DNA from: Bacteroidota bacterium
GTDB lineage: Bacteria > Bacteroidota > Bacteroidia > Chitinophagales > Chitinophagaceae
DNA length: 64,000 nt
Assembly (NCBI GenBank): GCA_013286425.1
Contig: JABDFS010000001.1
Location: 1 to 64,000, forward strand
Direction of reading: 5' to 3'
Shown here: piece after piece, positions 8,369 to 45,159 of the stretch
Layout of the letters: each line of letters starts with the position of its first letter
Position numbering within the stretch: position 1 is the first letter of the stretch
The notes under the pieces: model-generated
Databases searched by the model: none
What the model was told of the DNA's origin: nothing
The model's input: the letters and a program-made list of their open reading frames with translations, nothing else
Translations under genes and position numbers: made by a program

Positions 8369-9181
8369 TTACACACTTACATTAAAATCTCTCAGGGCAT
8401 CGTTTAGACTTGTTTTAAGATCTGTGCTGGGTTTGCGTTTGCCGATGATCAATGCACAGCTTACCCCAAAAGAACCTGCGGGAAAATCTTTGTTGTATGT
8501 GCCGGGAATAACAACACTGCCGGCCGGAACATGGCCTTTGTATTCAACAGGCGAGGATTTACTTACATCTATAATTTTTGTGGATTGTGTAAGCACTACG
8601 TTTGCACCAAGCACTGCCTCTTTTTCAACGATAACGCCTTCAACCACTATGCAACGGCTGCCGATAAAACACCCATCTTCTATAATTACAGGCGAGGCTT
8701 GTAACGGTTCCAAAACACCGCCAATACCAACACCGCCGCTCAGGTGAACATGCTTGCCTATCTGCGCACAACTGCCAACAGTTGCCCATGTATCAACCAT
8801 GGTTCCTTCATCTACATACGCACCAATATTTATGAAGCTTGGAAGCTGTATCACGTTCTTTGCAACATAAGCGCCGTAACGCGAAACAGCACCGGGAATA
8901 GTTCTGACGCCTAAGCTTTTAAAATCTTTTTTTAATGGGATCTTATCATGGAACTCAAAGGGCGGCATTTGTATGGTTTCCATCGGCTGCACAGCGAAGT
9001 ACATAAGTATTGCCTGTTTTACCCACTCGTTTACCTGCCATCCGTTCTCAGTTGGTGAAGCTGTGCGCAACCTTCCTTTATCCACTTCTTCAATAACTGC
9101 TTTTACTGCGTCTGAATATTTCTGATCTTTTAATAATTCCCGGTTGGACCATGCTTCTGAAATCAATGATTGTAATTCCAT
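8369..9181 (-). CDS. dapD: 2,3,4,5-tetrahydropyridine-2,6-dicarboxylate N-succinyltransferase
   Basis: Hexapeptide/LbH repeats, VDEGTMVDTWATVGSCAQIG, NGWQVNEWVKQAIL. Internal Met (MELQSLISEAW) is the likelier start than ORF start 9220. Confidence 0.93.
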   Translation of the reverse strand: MELQSLISEAWSNRELLKDQKYSDAVKAVIEEVDKGRLRTASPTENGWQVNEWVKQAILMYFAVQPMETIQMPPFEFHDKIPLKKDFKSLGVRTIPGAVSRYGAYVAKNVIQLPSFINIGAYVDEGTMVDTWATVGSCAQIGKHVHLSGGVGIGGVLEPLQASPVIIEDGCFIGSRCIVVEGVIVEKEAVLGANVVLTQSTKIIDVSKSSPVEYKGHVPAGSVVIPGTYNKDFPAGSFGVSCALIIGKRKPSTDLKTSLNDALRDFNVSV

Positions 9182-9397
9182 GAATTTTTTTTGCGAAGAT
9201 AAATATTGAACAATTCGCAAAAGAAATTATAGCCAGGTACAGGCAGGATTAAGCAAACGTCACGGGGAAAGTAAACGAAGCTGAAAATTGAAAGGTTTTT
9301 TCACTACCAGCCTATAAGGAATGACAGGTGTATACCTGCAAGCTGTACTGATCATCTTATTTATCAATTACCTGTTTTATATTTAACAGGGAGCATA

Positions 9398-9503
9398 TTT
9401 TTACGATAAAACTTCGATATTTATTCGACATTTCTTCGATCTTATTGATCGAAGTTATATCGAAGTTTTATCGAAGAAATATCGAAGTTATATCGAAGAA
9501 ATG
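9398..9503 (+). repeat. Palindromic 11-bp-phased repeat element, copy A
   Basis: CGA triplets at 9404, 9415, 9426, 9437 | 9450, 9461, 9472, 9483, 9494: 11-bp spacing with one central 13-bp step; right arm is CGAAGTTATAT-type units ending CGAAGAAATG. Confidence 0.9.
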
Positions 9504-9605
9504 AACTGCCAGATATTTTTTGTTAAATGAGTTTAGGATGAGACAACAAAAAACTTTAAAGGTTAGTAGTTAGCCGGCTAAAAGGTTGCAGTTTATATTA
9601 TGAAA

Positions 9606-13527: not shown

Positions 13528-13626
13528 AAATTATAGTTTTAATTTTTATTGCCTACTCTAACCGGTTTTCGGCTTACCCGTTTTTATTTAATAATTGTTG
13601 TTTGCAGTTGTATGAGTAACTTTAAA

Positions 13627-23905: not shown

Positions 23906-26728
23906 TTAATGCGCTTCCAGCCAATTATCACCAACACCTAATTCTGCATCCACAGGTACATCAAACGGCAAAGGCAATGCCGATTTCATATTGTTTAAAA
24001 TTAATGGCTGCAATACATCCAGTTCTAAAGGCAAAGCATCAAACACCAATTCATCATGCACCTGCATGATCATTTTGCTTTTTAAATTTTCTTTTTTTAT
24101 GGCATCATGAATTTTTATCATCGCCATTTTAATCATGTCTGCTGCAGTGCCTTGTATGGGTGAATTGATCGCATTGCGCTCTGCATAACCACGCACCGTA
24201 AAGTTTGATGAGTTGATATCTTTCAGCCAGCGTTTTCTGCCCATCAATGTTTGCACATAACCATGTTCGCGGCAAAAATTTATCATATTGTCCATGTACT
24301 TTGTAATACCATTAAATTCCTTTTTATAGTTGTCGATAATTTCTTTTGCTTCTGTTCTGCTTATTCCCAGGTTATCGGCCAAACCAAATGCACCCTGCCC
24401 ATAAATAATTCCAAAGTTTACGCTCTTTGCTTTATAGCGCATTTCTTTGGTTACATCTTTCGCATCAACATTAAATACTTTAGATGCAGTTGCCGTATGA
24501 ATATCTGCGTTATTGCGAAATGCATTGCACATGTTTTCATCGCCGCTGATGGCTGCAACAATTCTTAGTTCTATCTGCGAATAATCTGCGCTGATAATTA
24601 CATTGCCCTGCCTTGGAATAAACGCTTTGCGGATTTCTTTTCCGCGTTCTGTTCTTATTGGTATGTTTTGAAGATTCGGATTGTTGCTTGCCAATCTTCC
24701 TGTTACTGCAACTGCCTGCCCGTATGTTGTATGTACTCTTCCGCTTTTGCGGTTGATCAGTGAAGGCAATGCATCAACATAGGTTGATCTTAGTTTTGTT
24801 AATTGACGATACGCTAAAATATCATCAACAATAGGATTGGAATGTGCAAGTTTCGTCAACACATCTTCACCGGTTGCATACTGGCCGCTCTTGGTTTTTT
24901 TAGCTGATGGATTAAGCTTTAATTTTTCAAACAACACTTCACCCAATTGCTTGGGCGAACCAATATTAAACTTAACACCAGCGCCTGCATACACAGCCTG
25001 TTCGGCCTGGTAAGCTTCACGTTCCAGGTCTTTTGAATAATTTACCAGGAAAGGCACATCGATCATTACGCCTTCATATTCCATATCGGTCAATACTTTT
25101 ACCAATGGATTTTCCACTTCATAAAAAACACGTTCAACATCTTTCGCTTTTAATAAAGGATGCAATGAATTCTTTAACTGCAACGTAATGTCTGCATCTT
25201 CAGCTGCATAATCTTTTAGCTTTTGAATTTCAACATCACGCATTGTTCCCTGGCCTTTTCCTTTTTTACCAATCAGTTCTTCAATATGAACAGGCTCATA
25301 ACTTAAGAATTGTGCACTCAATAAATCCATGCTACGCTTACCATCCGGCTCAACAACATAATGTGCAAGCATGGTATCATAAACGGCGCCTTTTATTTCG
25401 CGGTTGTAATATTTTAAAACAAGCAGGTCGTATTTTAAATTATGGCCAATCCATATGAGGTCCGGATTATCAAATAAAGGCTTTAATAATTCAAGCAAGT
25501 TGCAGGTGGCCTCATAATCATCTTTGCAGGTAACAAAATAAGCTTCGCCGGGTTTATAAGAAAAACTCATTCCAACCAGCTCTGCATCGTTGGCATCAAT
25601 GCCTGTGGTTTCTGTATCAAAACAAATTTCTGTTTGCTGCATCAATACATCAACCAGTTCTTTTATCTTCTTTTCATCATCAACTAAAATATATTCATGC
25701 TGTGTGTTGTTGATGTTATTCGATGCGGATAGGCCGCTATCTTCAATCTCGTTGTCTTCTGTTTTTTCAATGATGGTTCTTGCCGCAGCACTTTCAATTG
25801 CATTACCAAACAGATCTGTCTGAACGCCAACAGGCGCACCACCAAACACATTAAAATCATCTCCGAGAATTCTTTTGCCAAGTGTTTTAAACTCAAGTTC
25901 GGTAAACACTTCTATCAATGCCGGTTTATTCCATTCTTTTAAACAAAACTCTTCTTCATGAAACTGAACCGGGACATTGGTGATAATAGTTGCAAGCTTC
26001 TTGCTCAGTATGGCTGATTCTTTTCCCGCAACAATTTTTTGTCCCAACGCGCCTTTAATGTTCTCTGCATTTGCAACAACGTTTTCTACATTGCCATATT
26101 CTTTCAACAATTTTGCTGCAGTCTTTTCACCCACACCTGCAATGCCCGGGATATTATCCACCGCATCGCCCATCAAACCCAAAATATCAATTACCTGGCT
26201 TACATCTGCAATATCCCATTTTGCACAAACCTCTGCAGAACCCATGATCTCAACATTGCTACCCTGGTAACCGGGTTTATAAATTTTTACACCATCACGC
26301 ACAAGCTGGCCATAATCTTTATCAGGCGTAACCATGAACACTTCATAACCCGCATCATGCGCCTGCCATGCCAATGTGCCAATTACATCATCAGCCTCAT
26401 AACCGGCAACGCCAATGCATGGAATATTAAAGCCTTCAATGATCTTTTTTATTTCGGGAATAGATTCAACCAGGTCTTCCGGCGCTTCCTGCCGGTTGGC
26501 TTTATAATCAGAGAAATCTGTATGGCGTTCTGTTTTTCCTTCCACATCAAAACATACAGCAAGGTGTGTAGGCCTTTCTTTGTTAATGAGATCAATCAAT
26601 GTATTGGTGAAACCAAATTGTGCATTGGTATTTTTTCCTTTTGAAGTTATGCGCGGGTTGCGAATGAGTGCATAATAGGCACGAAAAATAAGTGCATAGG
26701 CATCCAGCAAAAACAAACGTTTATCCAT
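23906..26728 (-). CDS. polA: DNA polymerase I
   Basis: 5' nuclease (RLFLLDAYALIFRAYYAL), 3'-5' exonuclease (CFDTETTGID), polymerase (SADYSQIELRIVAAISGD, KSVNFGIIYGQGAFGL, QVHDELVFD). MDKRLF start at 26728 preferred. Confidence 0.96.
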   Translation of the reverse strand: MDKRLFLLDAYALIFRAYYALIRNPRITSKGKNTNAQFGFTNTLIDLINKERPTHLAVCFDVEGKTERHTDFSDYKANRQEAPEDLVESIPEIKKIIEGFNIPCIGVAGYEADDVIGTLAWQAHDAGYEVFMVTPDKDYGQLVRDGVKIYKPGYQGSNVEIMGSAEVCAKWDIADVSQVIDILGLMGDAVDNIPGIAGVGEKTAAKLLKEYGNVENVVANAENIKGALGQKIVAGKESAILSKKLATIITNVPVQFHEEEFCLKEWNKPALIEVFTELEFKTLGKRILGDDFNVFGGAPVGVQTDLFGNAIESAAARTIIEKTEDNEIEDSGLSASNNINNTQHEYILVDDEKKIKELVDVLMQQTEICFDTETTGIDANDAELVGMSFSYKPGEAYFVTCKDDYEATCNLLELLKPLFDNPDLIWIGHNLKYDLLVLKYYNREIKGAVYDTMLAHYVVEPDGKRSMDLLSAQFLSYEPVHIEELIGKKGKGQGTMRDVEIQKLKDYAAEDADITLQLKNSLHPLLKAKDVERVFYEVENPLVKVLTDMEYEGVMIDVPFLVNYSKDLEREAYQAEQAVYAGAGVKFNIGSPKQLGEVLFEKLKLNPSAKKTKSGQYATGEDVLTKLAHSNPIVDDILAYRQLTKLRSTYVDALPSLINRKSGRVHTTYGQAVAVTGRLASNNPNLQNIPIRTERGKEIRKAFIPRQGNVIISADYSQIELRIVAAISGDENMCNAFRNNADIHTATASKVFNVDAKDVTKEMRYKAKSVNFGIIYGQGAFGLADNLGISRTEAKEIIDNYKKEFNGITKYMDNMINFCREHGYVQTLMGRKRWLKDINSSNFTVRGYAERNAINSPIQGTAADMIKMAMIKIHDAIKKENLKSKMIMQVHDELVFDALPLELDVLQPLILNNMKSALPLPFDVPVDAELGVGDNWLEAH

Positions 26729-26747
26729 GGTGCTAAGATAAACCCCA

Positions 26748-26770
26748 TCCCATAAAGGGGAGTAAAATTT
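26748..26770. repeat. Short G/C-tract palindrome AACCCCATCCCATAAAGGGGAGT
   Basis: Reverse complement ACTCCCCTTTATGGGATGGGGTT resembles ACTCCCCTTCAGGGGTTGGGGGC inside pdhC (about 30430-30452). Confidence 0.55.
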
Positions 26771-26880
26771 TTTGGTCAAAATGTAAACCGGTAATTAATG
26801 CACAGGCATTTTAATTCTGCTTCTAATCAATTGATTATTTTATTTATTACTTGCTGGTCTTATGTTTACCCGGTAGCTTA

Positions 26881-26975
26881 TTTTTACGATATAATTTCGA
26901 TATAACTTCGATATTTATTCGATCTAATTAATCGAAATTATATCGAAGAAATATCGAAATTACATCGAAGAAATG
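26881..26975 (+). repeat. Palindromic 11-bp-phased repeat element, copy B
   Basis: CGA at 26887, 26898, 26909, 26920 | 26933, 26944, 26955, 26966; ends CGAAGAAATG; left flank similar to copy A. Confidence 0.9.
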
Positions 26976-27298
26976 TGTTTACAAGTACGAATAAATTAAT
27001 CCGCAAATATGCAGATCATGAAAAATAGCCAACTTGTTACAAGCCGGAAGGTTATGAATAAGATAATTAGCCAAACATCTTTCCTGCTTTATCTCTTATA
27101 AAAAAACTTCGCCAGGGAGTTAAACCATTAAAATTTTATTTATTAATGAACAGAGCCAACATAACATCTGATCTTCATCATATCACACAGCAGCCTGTTT
27201 CATTAATTCTCATAATGAAATTATAAATCGAATAAAAAGCCGGGTGCACATAACACCTTCAGAAAGATTCTTCGTATTCAATTTTAAATTTTGCATTT

Positions 27299-39392: not shown

Positions 39393-39536
39393 AGATAAAT
39401 TGTGAGGAGTAAAAATATTGAAATCTATACAACTGTGTAATGCTTTAATAACTATAAGGCAAACATTCAAAGCTAATTTATTACTGACCCTGGCTATGTA
39501 ATGTTTTTACTCTAATCATCTCAATAACAACAAGCT

Positions 39537-39640
39537 CATTTCTTCGATATAATTTCGATATTTCTTCGATATAACTTCGATATAACTTCGATCAATTAAA
39601 TCGAAGAAACATCGAAGTTATATCGAAGTTTTTTCGTAGA
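39537..39640 (-). repeat. Palindromic 11-bp-phased repeat element, copy C (inverted relative to A/B)
   Basis: CG at 39545, 39556, 39567, 39578, 39589 | 39602, 39613, 39624, 39635; central step 13 bp. Confidence 0.9.
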
Positions 39641-39778
39641 AAAGAAGAACTTGGTATTTTTTAACTCCATGGTTGTATGCCTTCAGTGCCGTAATGGCTT
39701 AGCTTCTTATTGTGTCTAAGCAGGTAAATAGGAAATTGCGTAAATTGGTTTTATATTAGCAAAAAGATTAACTGTTGT

Positions 39779-42592
39779 ATGCCCTTAAGCTGGAATGAAA
39801 TTAAATCGAGAGCCCTTGCCTTTACCAATGAATGGAAAGATGAAGTAAGTGAAGATGCAGAAGCAAAAAGTTTCTGGGATGATTTTTTCAATGTATTTGG
39901 TATCAGTCGCCGCCGTGTTGCAACATTTGAGCAACAGGTAAAAAAGATCGACGATAAGCAAGGCTTTATTGATTTGCTTTGGAAAGGAATGATCCTTATT
40001 GAGCATAAGAGCCGAGGTAAAGATTTAGAAAGAGCATATAAGCAGGCTAAAGATTATTTTCCCGGGCTCAAAGAAAAAGAGTTACCACGTTATATTTTAG
40101 TAAGCGACTTTGAACATTTTAAACTATATGATCTTGAAGCTAACTATAACCACAATTTTGTTATCACCGATTTTGTAAATAATGTACACCTTTTTGGTTT
40201 TATCGCAGGATATGAGAAACGTACCTATAAAGAGCAAGACCCTGTAAACATTGATGCAGCAGAACTAATGGGAAAGCTGCATGATAAACTAAAAGCAGTT
40301 GGATACACAGGGCATGCCTTAGAAAGATATTTAGTACGATTAGTATTTATGCTGTTTGCTGATGATACTAATATTTTTGAACGAGGCATTTTTTATGAGT
40401 ATTTAGAACTGAAAACAGCCGAGGACGGCAGTGATCTTGCAGCGCATCTTGGACAATTATTTGAAGTATTGAACACACCCAAAGAAAACCGTTTAAGAAA
40501 TCTTGATGAAAGCCTGAATGCTTTTCCTTATGTAAATGGCAGGCTGTTTGACGAACATTTGCCAACGGCATCTTTTGACAGTGAGATGCGTAAAATATTA
40601 GTGGATTGTTGTTTACTTGATTGGGGTAAAATCTCTCCCGCCATATTTGGTTCGCTTTTTCAAAGTGTGATGGATGCGAAAGCAAGAAGAAATCTAGGTG
40701 CGCATTATACGAGTGAAAAAAATATACTGAAGCTTATTAAGCCTTTATTCCTGGATGAATTTTGGGCAGCTTATGAAAAGGTAAAAGACAATCGTATTCA
40801 GCTTCAAAAGCTGCATGAAAGCATAACAAACCTTCGCTTTCTTGATCCGGCTTGTGGTTGTGGCAATTTCTTAATTGTAGCCTATCGTGAATTGCGTTTG
40901 CTTGAAATAGAAATCATTAAAGGATTATTGAAAGATGTTTTAGAGAGGAAACAAGCAGTTACCAACATTGATATTTATTTTCAGTTAGACGTTGACCGTT
41001 TCTATGGAATAGAATATGAAGAATTTCCGGCGCAGATAGCACAGGTTGCAATGTGGCTGATAGACCACCAGATGAATATGAAAGCGAGTGAGATTTTTGG
41101 CGAATATTATGTGCGTTTGCCATTACGGAAAAGTGCAAATATTGTTCATGGAAATGCTTTGCGTATTGAGTGGCAAAGTTTGATTGATTCTTTGCCTTGG
41201 GAAAAAAGAGAGCCGAAGTTTAATTACATATTGGGTAATCCTCCGTTTATTGGCTATGCTTTAAGAAATGATCAACAAAGACAAGAAATGGATTTATTCT
41301 TTAATCAAATTCGTGGAGGTGGAGAATTAGATTATGTTGCTTGTTGGTTTATAAAAGCATCAGAATACTTGGAAAAATATAATGCTGTTGAACAAAAAAA
41401 TGTTGAGTTAAGCAAAATTGCATTTGTAAGTACGAATTCGCTCATACAAGGTGAACAAGTCGGTGTTTTATGGAATGTGCTTTTTAATAAATATCATATC
41501 AAAATACAATTTGCACATAGAACATTTAGCTGGAGTAATGAAGCAAAAGGAAATGCTGCTGTTCATGTAGTAATTATTGGATTTTCAAATTTTGATATTA
41601 CAGACAAAATACTGTATGAATATTTAAATCTCAAAAGCGAACCACATGAAGTAAAAGCCAAAAATATAAATGGCTATTTAGTTGATGGAAAAGATGTGTT
41701 TATTCAAAATAGGAGCTTTCCAGTTAATAATGTTTCGAAGATGGTTTATGGGAGTAAGCCAACAGACGGAGGTAATTTCCTGTTAGATGATGAACAAAAA
41801 GAAATTTTAATAAAGGACGAACCCTTAACTGAGCAATATATTAAACCTTTTTTATCCGCTTATGAATATTTGAATGGGAAAAAAAGATGGTGCTTATGGT
41901 TAGAAAATATAAACCCAACTGATTTAAAGAAGTTTCCTGCAATTTATGAACGCGTAATTAATGTAAGAAAGTCAAGGCTTAATAGTAGTAAAGCAGCGAC
42001 AAGAAAATTAGCTGATTTTCCAACAAGGTTTGAATACAATTCTCAACCTGATTCTGATTATATTTTAGTACCCTTACACACGTCAGAAGGAAGAACCTAT
42101 ATTCCGTTTGGCTTTTTTAGTAAAAACTTTATTGCAGGCAATAGTTGTTCTGTAATACCGAAAGCTTCACTATATGAATTCGGAGTAATCAGTTCCATTA
42201 TGCACATGGCATGGGTAAAAACTGTTTGTGGTAGAATTAAGAGTGACTATAGATATTCTGGGACAATCGTTTACAACAACTTTCCATGGCCAGAAAGTTC
42301 AACAGAAAAGCAAATACAAGGGATAGAAACAGCCGCACAAAATGTTTTAGATGCAAGAGCACAATTTCCAGATGCAAGCCTTGCAGATCTATATGATCCT
42401 AATACAATGCCGCCAGTCTTAGTAAAAGCACACCAAGCTTTAGACAAAGCAGTAGATTTATGTTACAGGCCTCAGCCTTTCATAAATGAAACTAAGCGAA
42501 TAGAATTTTTATTTGAGTTGTATGATAAATATACCAGCGGGTTATTTGCAAAAGAAAAATCAAAACGTAAAAGGAAAGCTGACAATCTATAA
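39779..42592 (+). CDS. MmeI-like (type IIL) single-chain restriction-modification enzyme: N-terminal nuclease plus gamma-class N6-adenine methyltransferase
   Basis: DLLWKGMILIEHK (D-x9-ExK nuclease motif), FLDPACGCGNFL (SAM motif I), YILGNPPFIGY (catalytic NPPF), C-terminal region similar to a target-recognition domain. Confidence 0.85.
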   Translation: MPLSWNEIKSRALAFTNEWKDEVSEDAEAKSFWDDFFNVFGISRRRVATFEQQVKKIDDKQGFIDLLWKGMILIEHKSRGKDLERAYKQAKDYFPGLKEKELPRYILVSDFEHFKLYDLEANYNHNFVITDFVNNVHLFGFIAGYEKRTYKEQDPVNIDAAELMGKLHDKLKAVGYTGHALERYLVRLVFMLFADDTNIFERGIFYEYLELKTAEDGSDLAAHLGQLFEVLNTPKENRLRNLDESLNAFPYVNGRLFDEHLPTASFDSEMRKILVDCCLLDWGKISPAIFGSLFQSVMDAKARRNLGAHYTSEKNILKLIKPLFLDEFWAAYEKVKDNRIQLQKLHESITNLRFLDPACGCGNFLIVAYRELRLLEIEIIKGLLKDVLERKQAVTNIDIYFQLDVDRFYGIEYEEFPAQIAQVAMWLIDHQMNMKASEIFGEYYVRLPLRKSANIVHGNALRIEWQSLIDSLPWEKREPKFNYILGNPPFIGYALRNDQQRQEMDLFFNQIRGGGELDYVACWFIKASEYLEKYNAVEQKNVELSKIAFVSTNSLIQGEQVGVLWNVLFNKYHIKIQFAHRTFSWSNEAKGNAAVHVVIIGFSNFDITDKILYEYLNLKSEPHEVKAKNINGYLVDGKDVFIQNRSFPVNNVSKMVYGSKPTDGGNFLLDDEQKEILIKDEPLTEQYIKPFLSAYEYLNGKKRWCLWLENINPTDLKKFPAIYERVINVRKSRLNSSKAATRKLADFPTRFEYNSQPDSDYILVPLHTSEGRTYIPFGFFSKNFIAGNSCSVIPKASLYEFGVISSIMHMAWVKTVCGRIKSDYRYSGTIVYNNFPWPESSTEKQIQGIETAAQNVLDARAQFPDASLADLYDPNTMPPVLVKAHQALDKAVDLCYRPQPFINETKRIEFLFELYDKYTSGLFAKEKSKRKRKADNL

Positions 42593-44486: not shown

Positions 44487-44509
44487 ACAGGCTTACACCT
44501 TAATCCTTC

Positions 44510-44571
44510 TGCCTTTTACCTTTTGTTCCCTTTTGTGCCTTTTTATTCCTTTTCGTGCCCTTTTGTGCCCA
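44510..44571 (+). repeat. C/T-rich degenerate tandem repeat
   Basis: ccttttaccttttgttcccttttgtgcctttttattccttttcgtgcccttttgtgccc. Confidence 0.75.
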
Positions 44572-44693
44572 AACGGGAAATGATGTTTTCAGCCTGTTCT
44601 AATCTTGCATATCGGTTTTACGGAAACAATGTTGAAATGGTTTTGAAACCGGAGTTCTTTGAAATATGGAGTTTAAACAGATTGCATAAAAAA

Positions 44694-44742: not shown

Positions 44743-45159
44743 TTATTTTTTTACTAACTTAAGTATTGCTTCCTGGTTTTTAATAATCACTTTAAGGCTC
44801 TTTTGATTATCAAGTATTGCCTTTTGGTTCTTCAGAATTGTCTGCTGATTCTTAAGAATAGTTGTTTGATTAGTTTTTAAACCTGCTTGATTTTTAAATA
44901 TAGCAGACTGGTTGGTTTTTATGTCGGCCTGGTTTTTTACGATCGTGCCCTGATTGGTTTTAATTACACCCTGGTTCTTTACGATTGTACCCTGGTTATC
45001 TTTCAACAATTTTTGATTACCAAGAATTGTTGTTTGGTTGCCTTTTAATGCCTTTTGATTTTCCTGAATAGCAGCCTGGTTATCTTTTATAGCCGTTTGG
45101 TTGTCTAAAATAGCTCCCTGGTTCTTTAGTAACACGTCGTCGTTTTCAACAGTGCTCAT
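44743..45159 (-). CDS. NQ-heptad repeat coiled-coil protein
   Basis: 138 aa; 17 NQ pairs, 16 in strict 7-residue register (I/L-x-x-N-Q-x-x); own terminator; no signal peptide. Confidence 0.85.
   Translation of the reverse strand: MSTVENDDVLLKNQGAILDNQTAIKDNQAAIQENQKALKGNQTTILGNQKLLKDNQGTIVKNQGVIKTNQGTIVKNQADIKTNQSAIFKNQAGLKTNQTTILKNQQTILKNQKAILDNQKSLKVIIKNQEAILKLVKK

Follow-up and report, generated by a model that had tools for sequence, protein, structure and literature searches.

The window analysed here, a 64,000-nucleotide stretch from a soil Bacteroidota genome (G000; 3.45 Mb in 178 contigs, 64% complete), raises the question of what an intergenic palindrome built from CGA-bearing units in strict 11-bp phase might be, and of what such an element does in a genome. 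An earlier note had described three of these palindromes, and the phasing that it reported is exact: in copy A, nine CGA trinucleotides begin at 9404, 9415, 9426, 9437, 9450, 9461, 9472, 9483 and 9494, in steps of 11, 11, 11, 13, 11, 11, 11 and 11 bp, and the same rule is obeyed by copy B (CGA from 26887 to 26966; steps of 11, 11, 11, 13, 11, 11 and 11) and copy C (CGA from 39545 to 39624; steps of 11, 11, 11, 11, 13, 11 and 11). The unit pattern has 17 matches in the window where 0.21 would be expected, the highest number in any shuffle being 2. The coordinates given in the note leave out tails that the copies share (Table 1).

Table 1. Phased elements of the window and the features beside them.
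Feature	Positions	Strand	Remark
Copy A, short (irregular) arm, 4 units at 11 bp	9395..9440	+	faces start of dapD-like gene
dapD-like gene	8369-9220	-	Pfam THDPS_N_2
Copy A, centre, 7 bases, TTCGAT to ATCGAA	9441..9447	.	
Copy A, long (regular) arm, 5 units, end CGAAGAAATGA	9448..9504	+	
Copy A, type I tail	9266..9394	+	~70-77% identity to other copies; terminal repeat degenerate
Copy B, short arm	26878..26923	+	faces polA (23906-26779, -)
Copy B, long arm, 4 units	26931..26976	+	
Copy B, type I tail remnant	26830..26877	+	
Copy B, right type I terminal repeat	27103..27115	+	AAAACTTCGCCAG (consensus AAAACTCCGCCAACGGGT)
Copy C (inverted), long arm, 5 units	39536..39592	-	
Copy C, short arm	39600..39645	-	faces MmeI-like restriction-modification gene (39779-42592, +)
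Copy C, type III tail	39646..39697	-	resembles palindrome-to-ATG stretch of DUF6266 genes
Solo period-10 array	44498..44617	+	84-86% identical to array upstream of contig C39 DUF6266 gene

The period-10 array listed last in Table 1 was absent from the earlier note; a second solo copy near it shows 84-86% identity too, and a conserved stretch, GGGAAAT..CCTGTTCTAATCTTGC, follows the array of the window. Two further features of the window were recorded: a match above the gathering score to the Rfam DUF805b cis-regulatory RNA motif (13550-13582, minus strand), and a 138-aa ORF composed of degenerate tandem repeats of 21 bp (44743-45159, minus strand), possibly a short coiled-coil repeat protein.

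The three copies belong to a much larger family. In a genome-wide search, TTCGAT-N{4,12}-ATCGAA was found at 51 places, and among those listed the centre is exactly 7 bases with one exception, an unrelated palindrome rich in GC. To the roughly 50 copies that share the 7-base centre, a broader search pattern added about 17 loci with a CGG-type variant, and the family in this genome comprises at least 65 scattered copies rather than three. Sixty aligned copies share a fixed asymmetry in which a long regular arm is set against a short irregular one. The long arm has two to eight regular units, typically in the order TT, TT, AA, TT, AA, and ends in CGAAGAAATGA; the short arm has about four, with irregular sequence (CGTA.., CGTAAAAATAAGC) in the third and the fourth. 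Elsewhere the CGAAG type is rare: among 40 relatives searched it occurs in one, a member of the same genus (G006, whose contigs are those of the soil MAG JABDAV01), and the only addition from a scan across 84,980 species genomes was UBA7600, labelled Chitinophagaceae.

The type III tail leads to a gene family. It corresponds to the stretch between a palindrome and the start codon of a DUF6266 gene (PF19781), and copy C is probably the remnant of a unit composed of array and DUF6266 gene, since its tail matches that stretch. At the type III loci the gene is intact on contig C14 and reduced to broken remnants on C12 and C63, and in UBA7600 an intact DUF6266 gene lies about 150 bp downstream of the palindrome. 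On C63 (L067), a CRISPR array whose repeat is 47 nt long (GTTGTGATTTGCTTTCAAATTAAGTTCTGACGATCTTTGATAACAAC) lies about 640 bp from the type III palindrome. We sought DUF6266 in the 40 relatives and in 297 sampled Bacteroidota genomes, of which 21 (~7%) encode it, and examined 42 usable 400-bp upstream regions for strong arrays, defined as a period of 10 or 11 with z >= 6. Such arrays were present in 28 of the 42, compared with 8 of 55 control regions from neighbouring genes; on inspection, all eight control arrays proved to be the same arrays, reached from a divergent gene, or a dispersed copy, or to come from a DUF6266 gene itself, and once these are explained the independent background of upstream arrays is near zero. 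Even with those controls counted, the association is strong (Fisher P = 2e-7), and it persists when the CGAA class is left out (P = 3e-6).

The arrays upstream of DUF6266 have many unrelated sequences, whether of period 10 (TGCCCTTTCA, GGCATAACAA, GCATTTCACT) or of period 11 (AAAGAGGGACC, TTTATATAGGT, AGATGGTACGA, GCTAACTATAT, TCTTTGACTCT). A distal period-11 array is combined with a proximal period-10 array in G003 (C4b), G010, G325, G146 (C7) and G329; the upstream loci recorded with this pairing of 11 and 10 bp are L132, L119, L151, L152 and L153. The CGAA palindrome class corresponds to a single DUF6266 clade with 100/100 support, UBA7600 included. In G002 and G003, arrays of this class are found essentially at the DUF6266 locus alone, with one extra weak place in G002, and none was found in G001, G004 or G007, genomes without a DUF6266 match. 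At the top-scoring DUF6266 genes of other families in the class (G320, G236, G122, G328 and G095), a clear array is missing.

Array and gene also appear, from sequence comparison, to move together. Between G000 and G006, one pair (C5/C102) is shared from the outer array edge at -196 to the stop codon with 90% identity, a second (C14/C88) from -168 to the stop codon with 86%, and a third, with a period-10 array (C39/C32), from -186 to the stop codon with 76%, while the flanks, compared over about 1.5 kb on each side, show no similarity. In contrast, for the array-less DUF6266 genes of G122 and G328 the similarity of the flanks extends past the gene. The stop codon is the limit of the shared unit, which has no conserved 3' end. 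Dispersal of the array was also seen in another family of the same class, where the single DUF6266 gene of G160 is preceded by (GCTAACTATAT)n and this array recurs at about 14 further loci (~15 in total) beside unrelated genes; in these copies a regular long arm, with four to six units, precedes an inverted and irregular one that stays in 11-bp register. Dispersal is not universal among array classes, given that the TATAGG array of the G003 DUF6266 gene has no dispersed copies and that the GGATANACAA array of G320 has one extra site. We consider it probable that the palindromes are dispersed, helically phased binding arrays whose home is upstream of DUF6266, forming with that gene a mobile unit, and that they have spread as solo arrays and within MITEs.

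The mobile, MITE-like side of the family is well supported. Terminal inverted repeats of two unrelated types enclose elements of the family, ACCCGTTGGCGGAGTTTT-like in type I and CTGCYGTGTACCCACA in type II, and ends of both types have made 9-bp target duplications. A blind scan for such duplications gives many chance matches of 7-8 bp, and we kept those adjoining consensus ends: four are perfect at 9/9 (TAATAAAAA at L042, GCGGCAGGT at L053, CTTTTGAAG at L057 and TTTATTAAA at L081) and four match at 8/9 (the C42 element, L055, L072 and L083). In many further copies the ends are degenerate. A search of the 64% complete assembly for an autonomous parent with these ends found no pair of ends at the distance expected of an insertion sequence. 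These features, together with the number, intergenic position and short length (310-346 bp) of the copies, and with the precedent of BrickBuilt, described in PMC4596501 as a Porphyromonas gingivalis MITE with an internal minisatellite, would suit an ordinary MITE, in which the palindrome is the passive core of non-autonomous transposons moved with 9-bp duplications by the transposase of an insertion sequence and the link to DUF6266 is an accident of capture. We nevertheless think this unlikely. The same core lies inside two unrelated types of end, neither of which was seen around type III or G160 copies, and phased arrays of other sequence recur upstream of DUF6266 across the phylum. Moreover, the array inside the type I ends on C25 is an unrelated one with an 11-bp unit, TCTCTRTAAGG (z 10.8), and the shells therefore contain arrays rather than one particular sequence.

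Less probable still is that the arrays are the sites of a transcription factor, either of the OmpR/PhoB type or DUF6266 itself, that controls many promoters. Of 45 copies in G000, 29 lie between divergent, 15 between tandem and one between convergent genes, figures whose baseline, the gaps of the window itself, is a small sample. The short-arm side faces a gene start in 39 of the 45 and the long-arm side in 34, as would be expected of a regulon, and the regions upstream of pheT-dnaB, atpG and aspS carry copies in both G000 and G006. However, G160 copies also occur between convergent genes, the neighbouring genes are diverse housekeeping genes without a common theme, and the copies are recent, their tails sharing repeats. 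The positions common to the two sister genomes (L053 and L083 at pheT-dnaB, L051 and L086 at atpG, L069 and L080 at aspS) may be read either as independent arrivals or as insertion hot spots. The tails of these copies differ, and the pheT-dnaB pair has opposite orientations and different duplications. At L053, a second, decayed CGAA/CGGT palindrome (ctcatttcttcggtatttactcgc...gagcgaataaatggcgg) lies within 240 bp to the left of the type II element.

The earlier note had offered two explanations for the phase, a protein multimer bound to one face of the DNA or a long A-form RNA hairpin, and the first of these fared better. A hairpin, whether of RNA or of extruded DNA, might serve as a transcript stabiliser, a terminator or a substrate of RNase III, and 11 bp is one turn of the A form; RNA folds of copies A, B and C, at z of -6.0 to -8.0, agree with it. 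Nonetheless, the arms within an element are no more complementary than arms paired at random (24.5/33 in both cases; permutation P = 0.5), which bears out the observation that phase is kept more strictly than pairing, and no compensatory base changes, the mark of a conserved RNA hairpin, were detected between the arms. Since the complementarity of the arms comes without co-variation inside copies, the hairpin is not supported. In addition, the innermost units have a near-fixed mismatch, with AA in 38 of 43 short arms and TT in 41 of 43 long arms, and the single G160 copy that was folded pairs poorly (z -1.9) and yet keeps the 11-bp phase and the dyad plan. Given that phase prevails over pairing, that the first-unit mismatch is fixed and that the G160 copy folds poorly, binding of protein on one face is favoured over an A-form hairpin. 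Taken with the many DUF6266 arrays that consist of direct repeats alone, the occurrence of arrays of period 10 and the near-absence of convergent sites, this makes a hairpin very improbable. The terminator reading was rejected on the orientation of the flanking genes (1/45 convergent).

It is scarcely credible that the elements are REP or BIME palindromes mobilised by a RAYT (Y1) transposase, as the earlier note had suggested checking, for although they are palindromic, intergenic and multicopy, only one of five Y1_Tnp genes, itself weakly matched, is found at about 1 kb from a copy (on C93), those on C16, C71, C106 and C29 not being beside copies, and REPs are palindromes of 20-40 bp (PMC3733652) with a GTAG or CGTC tag, whereas these elements measure about 100-350 bp, with internal tandem units and cores of about 100 bp made of repeated CGAAG units. 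A viral origin was rejected: no palindrome copies were found in 2.9 million viral contigs, DUF6266 was found in no plasmid and matched one phage record weakly (30% identity), and the single viral contig matched in the DUF6266 search contained no DUF6266-like ORF.

For the phased arrays that have their home upstream of DUF6266, we propose the following model. One unit per helical turn would present identical contacts on one face of the DNA, and a protein multimer likely binds there, in an assembly that would resemble those on iterons or on tandem response-regulator sites. Because a long regular and a short irregular arm, of opposite direction, meet at the dyad, the protein would form two opposed filaments there, or else a single asymmetric complex. 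The array and its DUF6266 gene would form a small unit that changes its place in the genome, the array perhaps driving the movement or the expression of the gene. Where the gene decays or is lost, solo arrays would remain, and some arrays may have entered MITE shells, which carry terminal inverted repeats and are moved with 9-bp target duplications.

The least certain part of the model is the identity of the binder. We regard DUF6266 as the first candidate, since the gene travels with the array and since, in the CGAA class at least, array sequence tracks the clade of the gene. It is conceivable, and we suggest it tentatively, that DUF6266 proteins bind and perhaps move their own upstream arrays, in which case they would be candidate mobile units found across the phylum without a recognisable recombinase, each paralogue having its specific 10- or 11-bp unit and leaving solo arrays behind. 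The protein itself offers few clues. No relatives were found in the PDB, where the profile search did no better than chance, in NCBIfam or in PHROGs; the invariant residues form no evident catalytic or DNA-binding motif; structure prediction for two sequences gave a pLDDT of 30 and no usable model; and no paper in the literature library that we searched contains the term DUF6266.

The palindromes are a real, non-random family of phase-constrained arrays, dispersed in the genome and tied to an uncharacterised gene family, and together with DUF6266 they point to a small unit, mobile or regulatory, of a kind not yet described. An unexplained gene family is now tied to a striking DNA architecture; this linkage, the terminal repeats with their 9-bp duplications and the apparent mobility of array and gene as one unit all lie beyond what the earlier note had in view. 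Should the array prove to be a mobile unit's address, genes would be moving without a known recombinase. If, instead, it is a regulatory array spread by transposition, a mobile promoter-proximal element would sit upstream of genes that include polA, dapD, pheT/dnaB and atpG.

Several known systems share parts of this organisation. The centromeres of ParMRC systems, such as parC of plasmid R1, consist of short iterons in phase, which precede the operon for the protein that binds them, and short phased repeats upstream of a gene are what we see here. However, DUF6266 is no relative of ParR by the searches run, and its genes are chromosomal, without a plasmid match. The integron gene cassette, one gene with one imperfect palindromic site, is likewise a small unit that changes its place. 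There the recombination site is downstream of the ORF, whereas the array described here is upstream, much longer and phased, and the shared unit stops at the stop codon. REP and BIME sequences with their RAYTs are also dispersed palindromes with a possible tie to a gene family, but the present elements are larger, have internal 11-bp units and lack a Y1 linkage. The nearest published element found is BrickBuilt, which, in the text of PMC4596501 that was available, is a multicopy, intergenic Bacteroidetes MITE with small terminal repeats, an internal minisatellite and promoter activity. Its unit is 23 nt long, arranged head to tail, with 19 copies in one strain, in contrast to the 10- or 11-bp units found here, and that portion of the paper describes neither an 11-bp dyad plan nor a link to a gene family such as DUF6266. 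For the proposed manner of binding, a precedent is offered by ArcA and other regulators of the OmpR/PhoB type. ArcA recognises direct repeats 11 bp apart centre to centre, three to five per site, for which phase is critical, a step of 12 bp leaving the DNA unprotected (PMC3798270); PhoP sites are given as 7+4 bp in the abstract of PMC4832192. Direct repeats at 11 bp are likewise found in the window copies. Those sites are degenerate versions of the target of one regulator, whereas the sequences of our arrays vary with the DUF6266 paralogue; moreover, the arrays contain a dyad, and array and gene appear to move as one.
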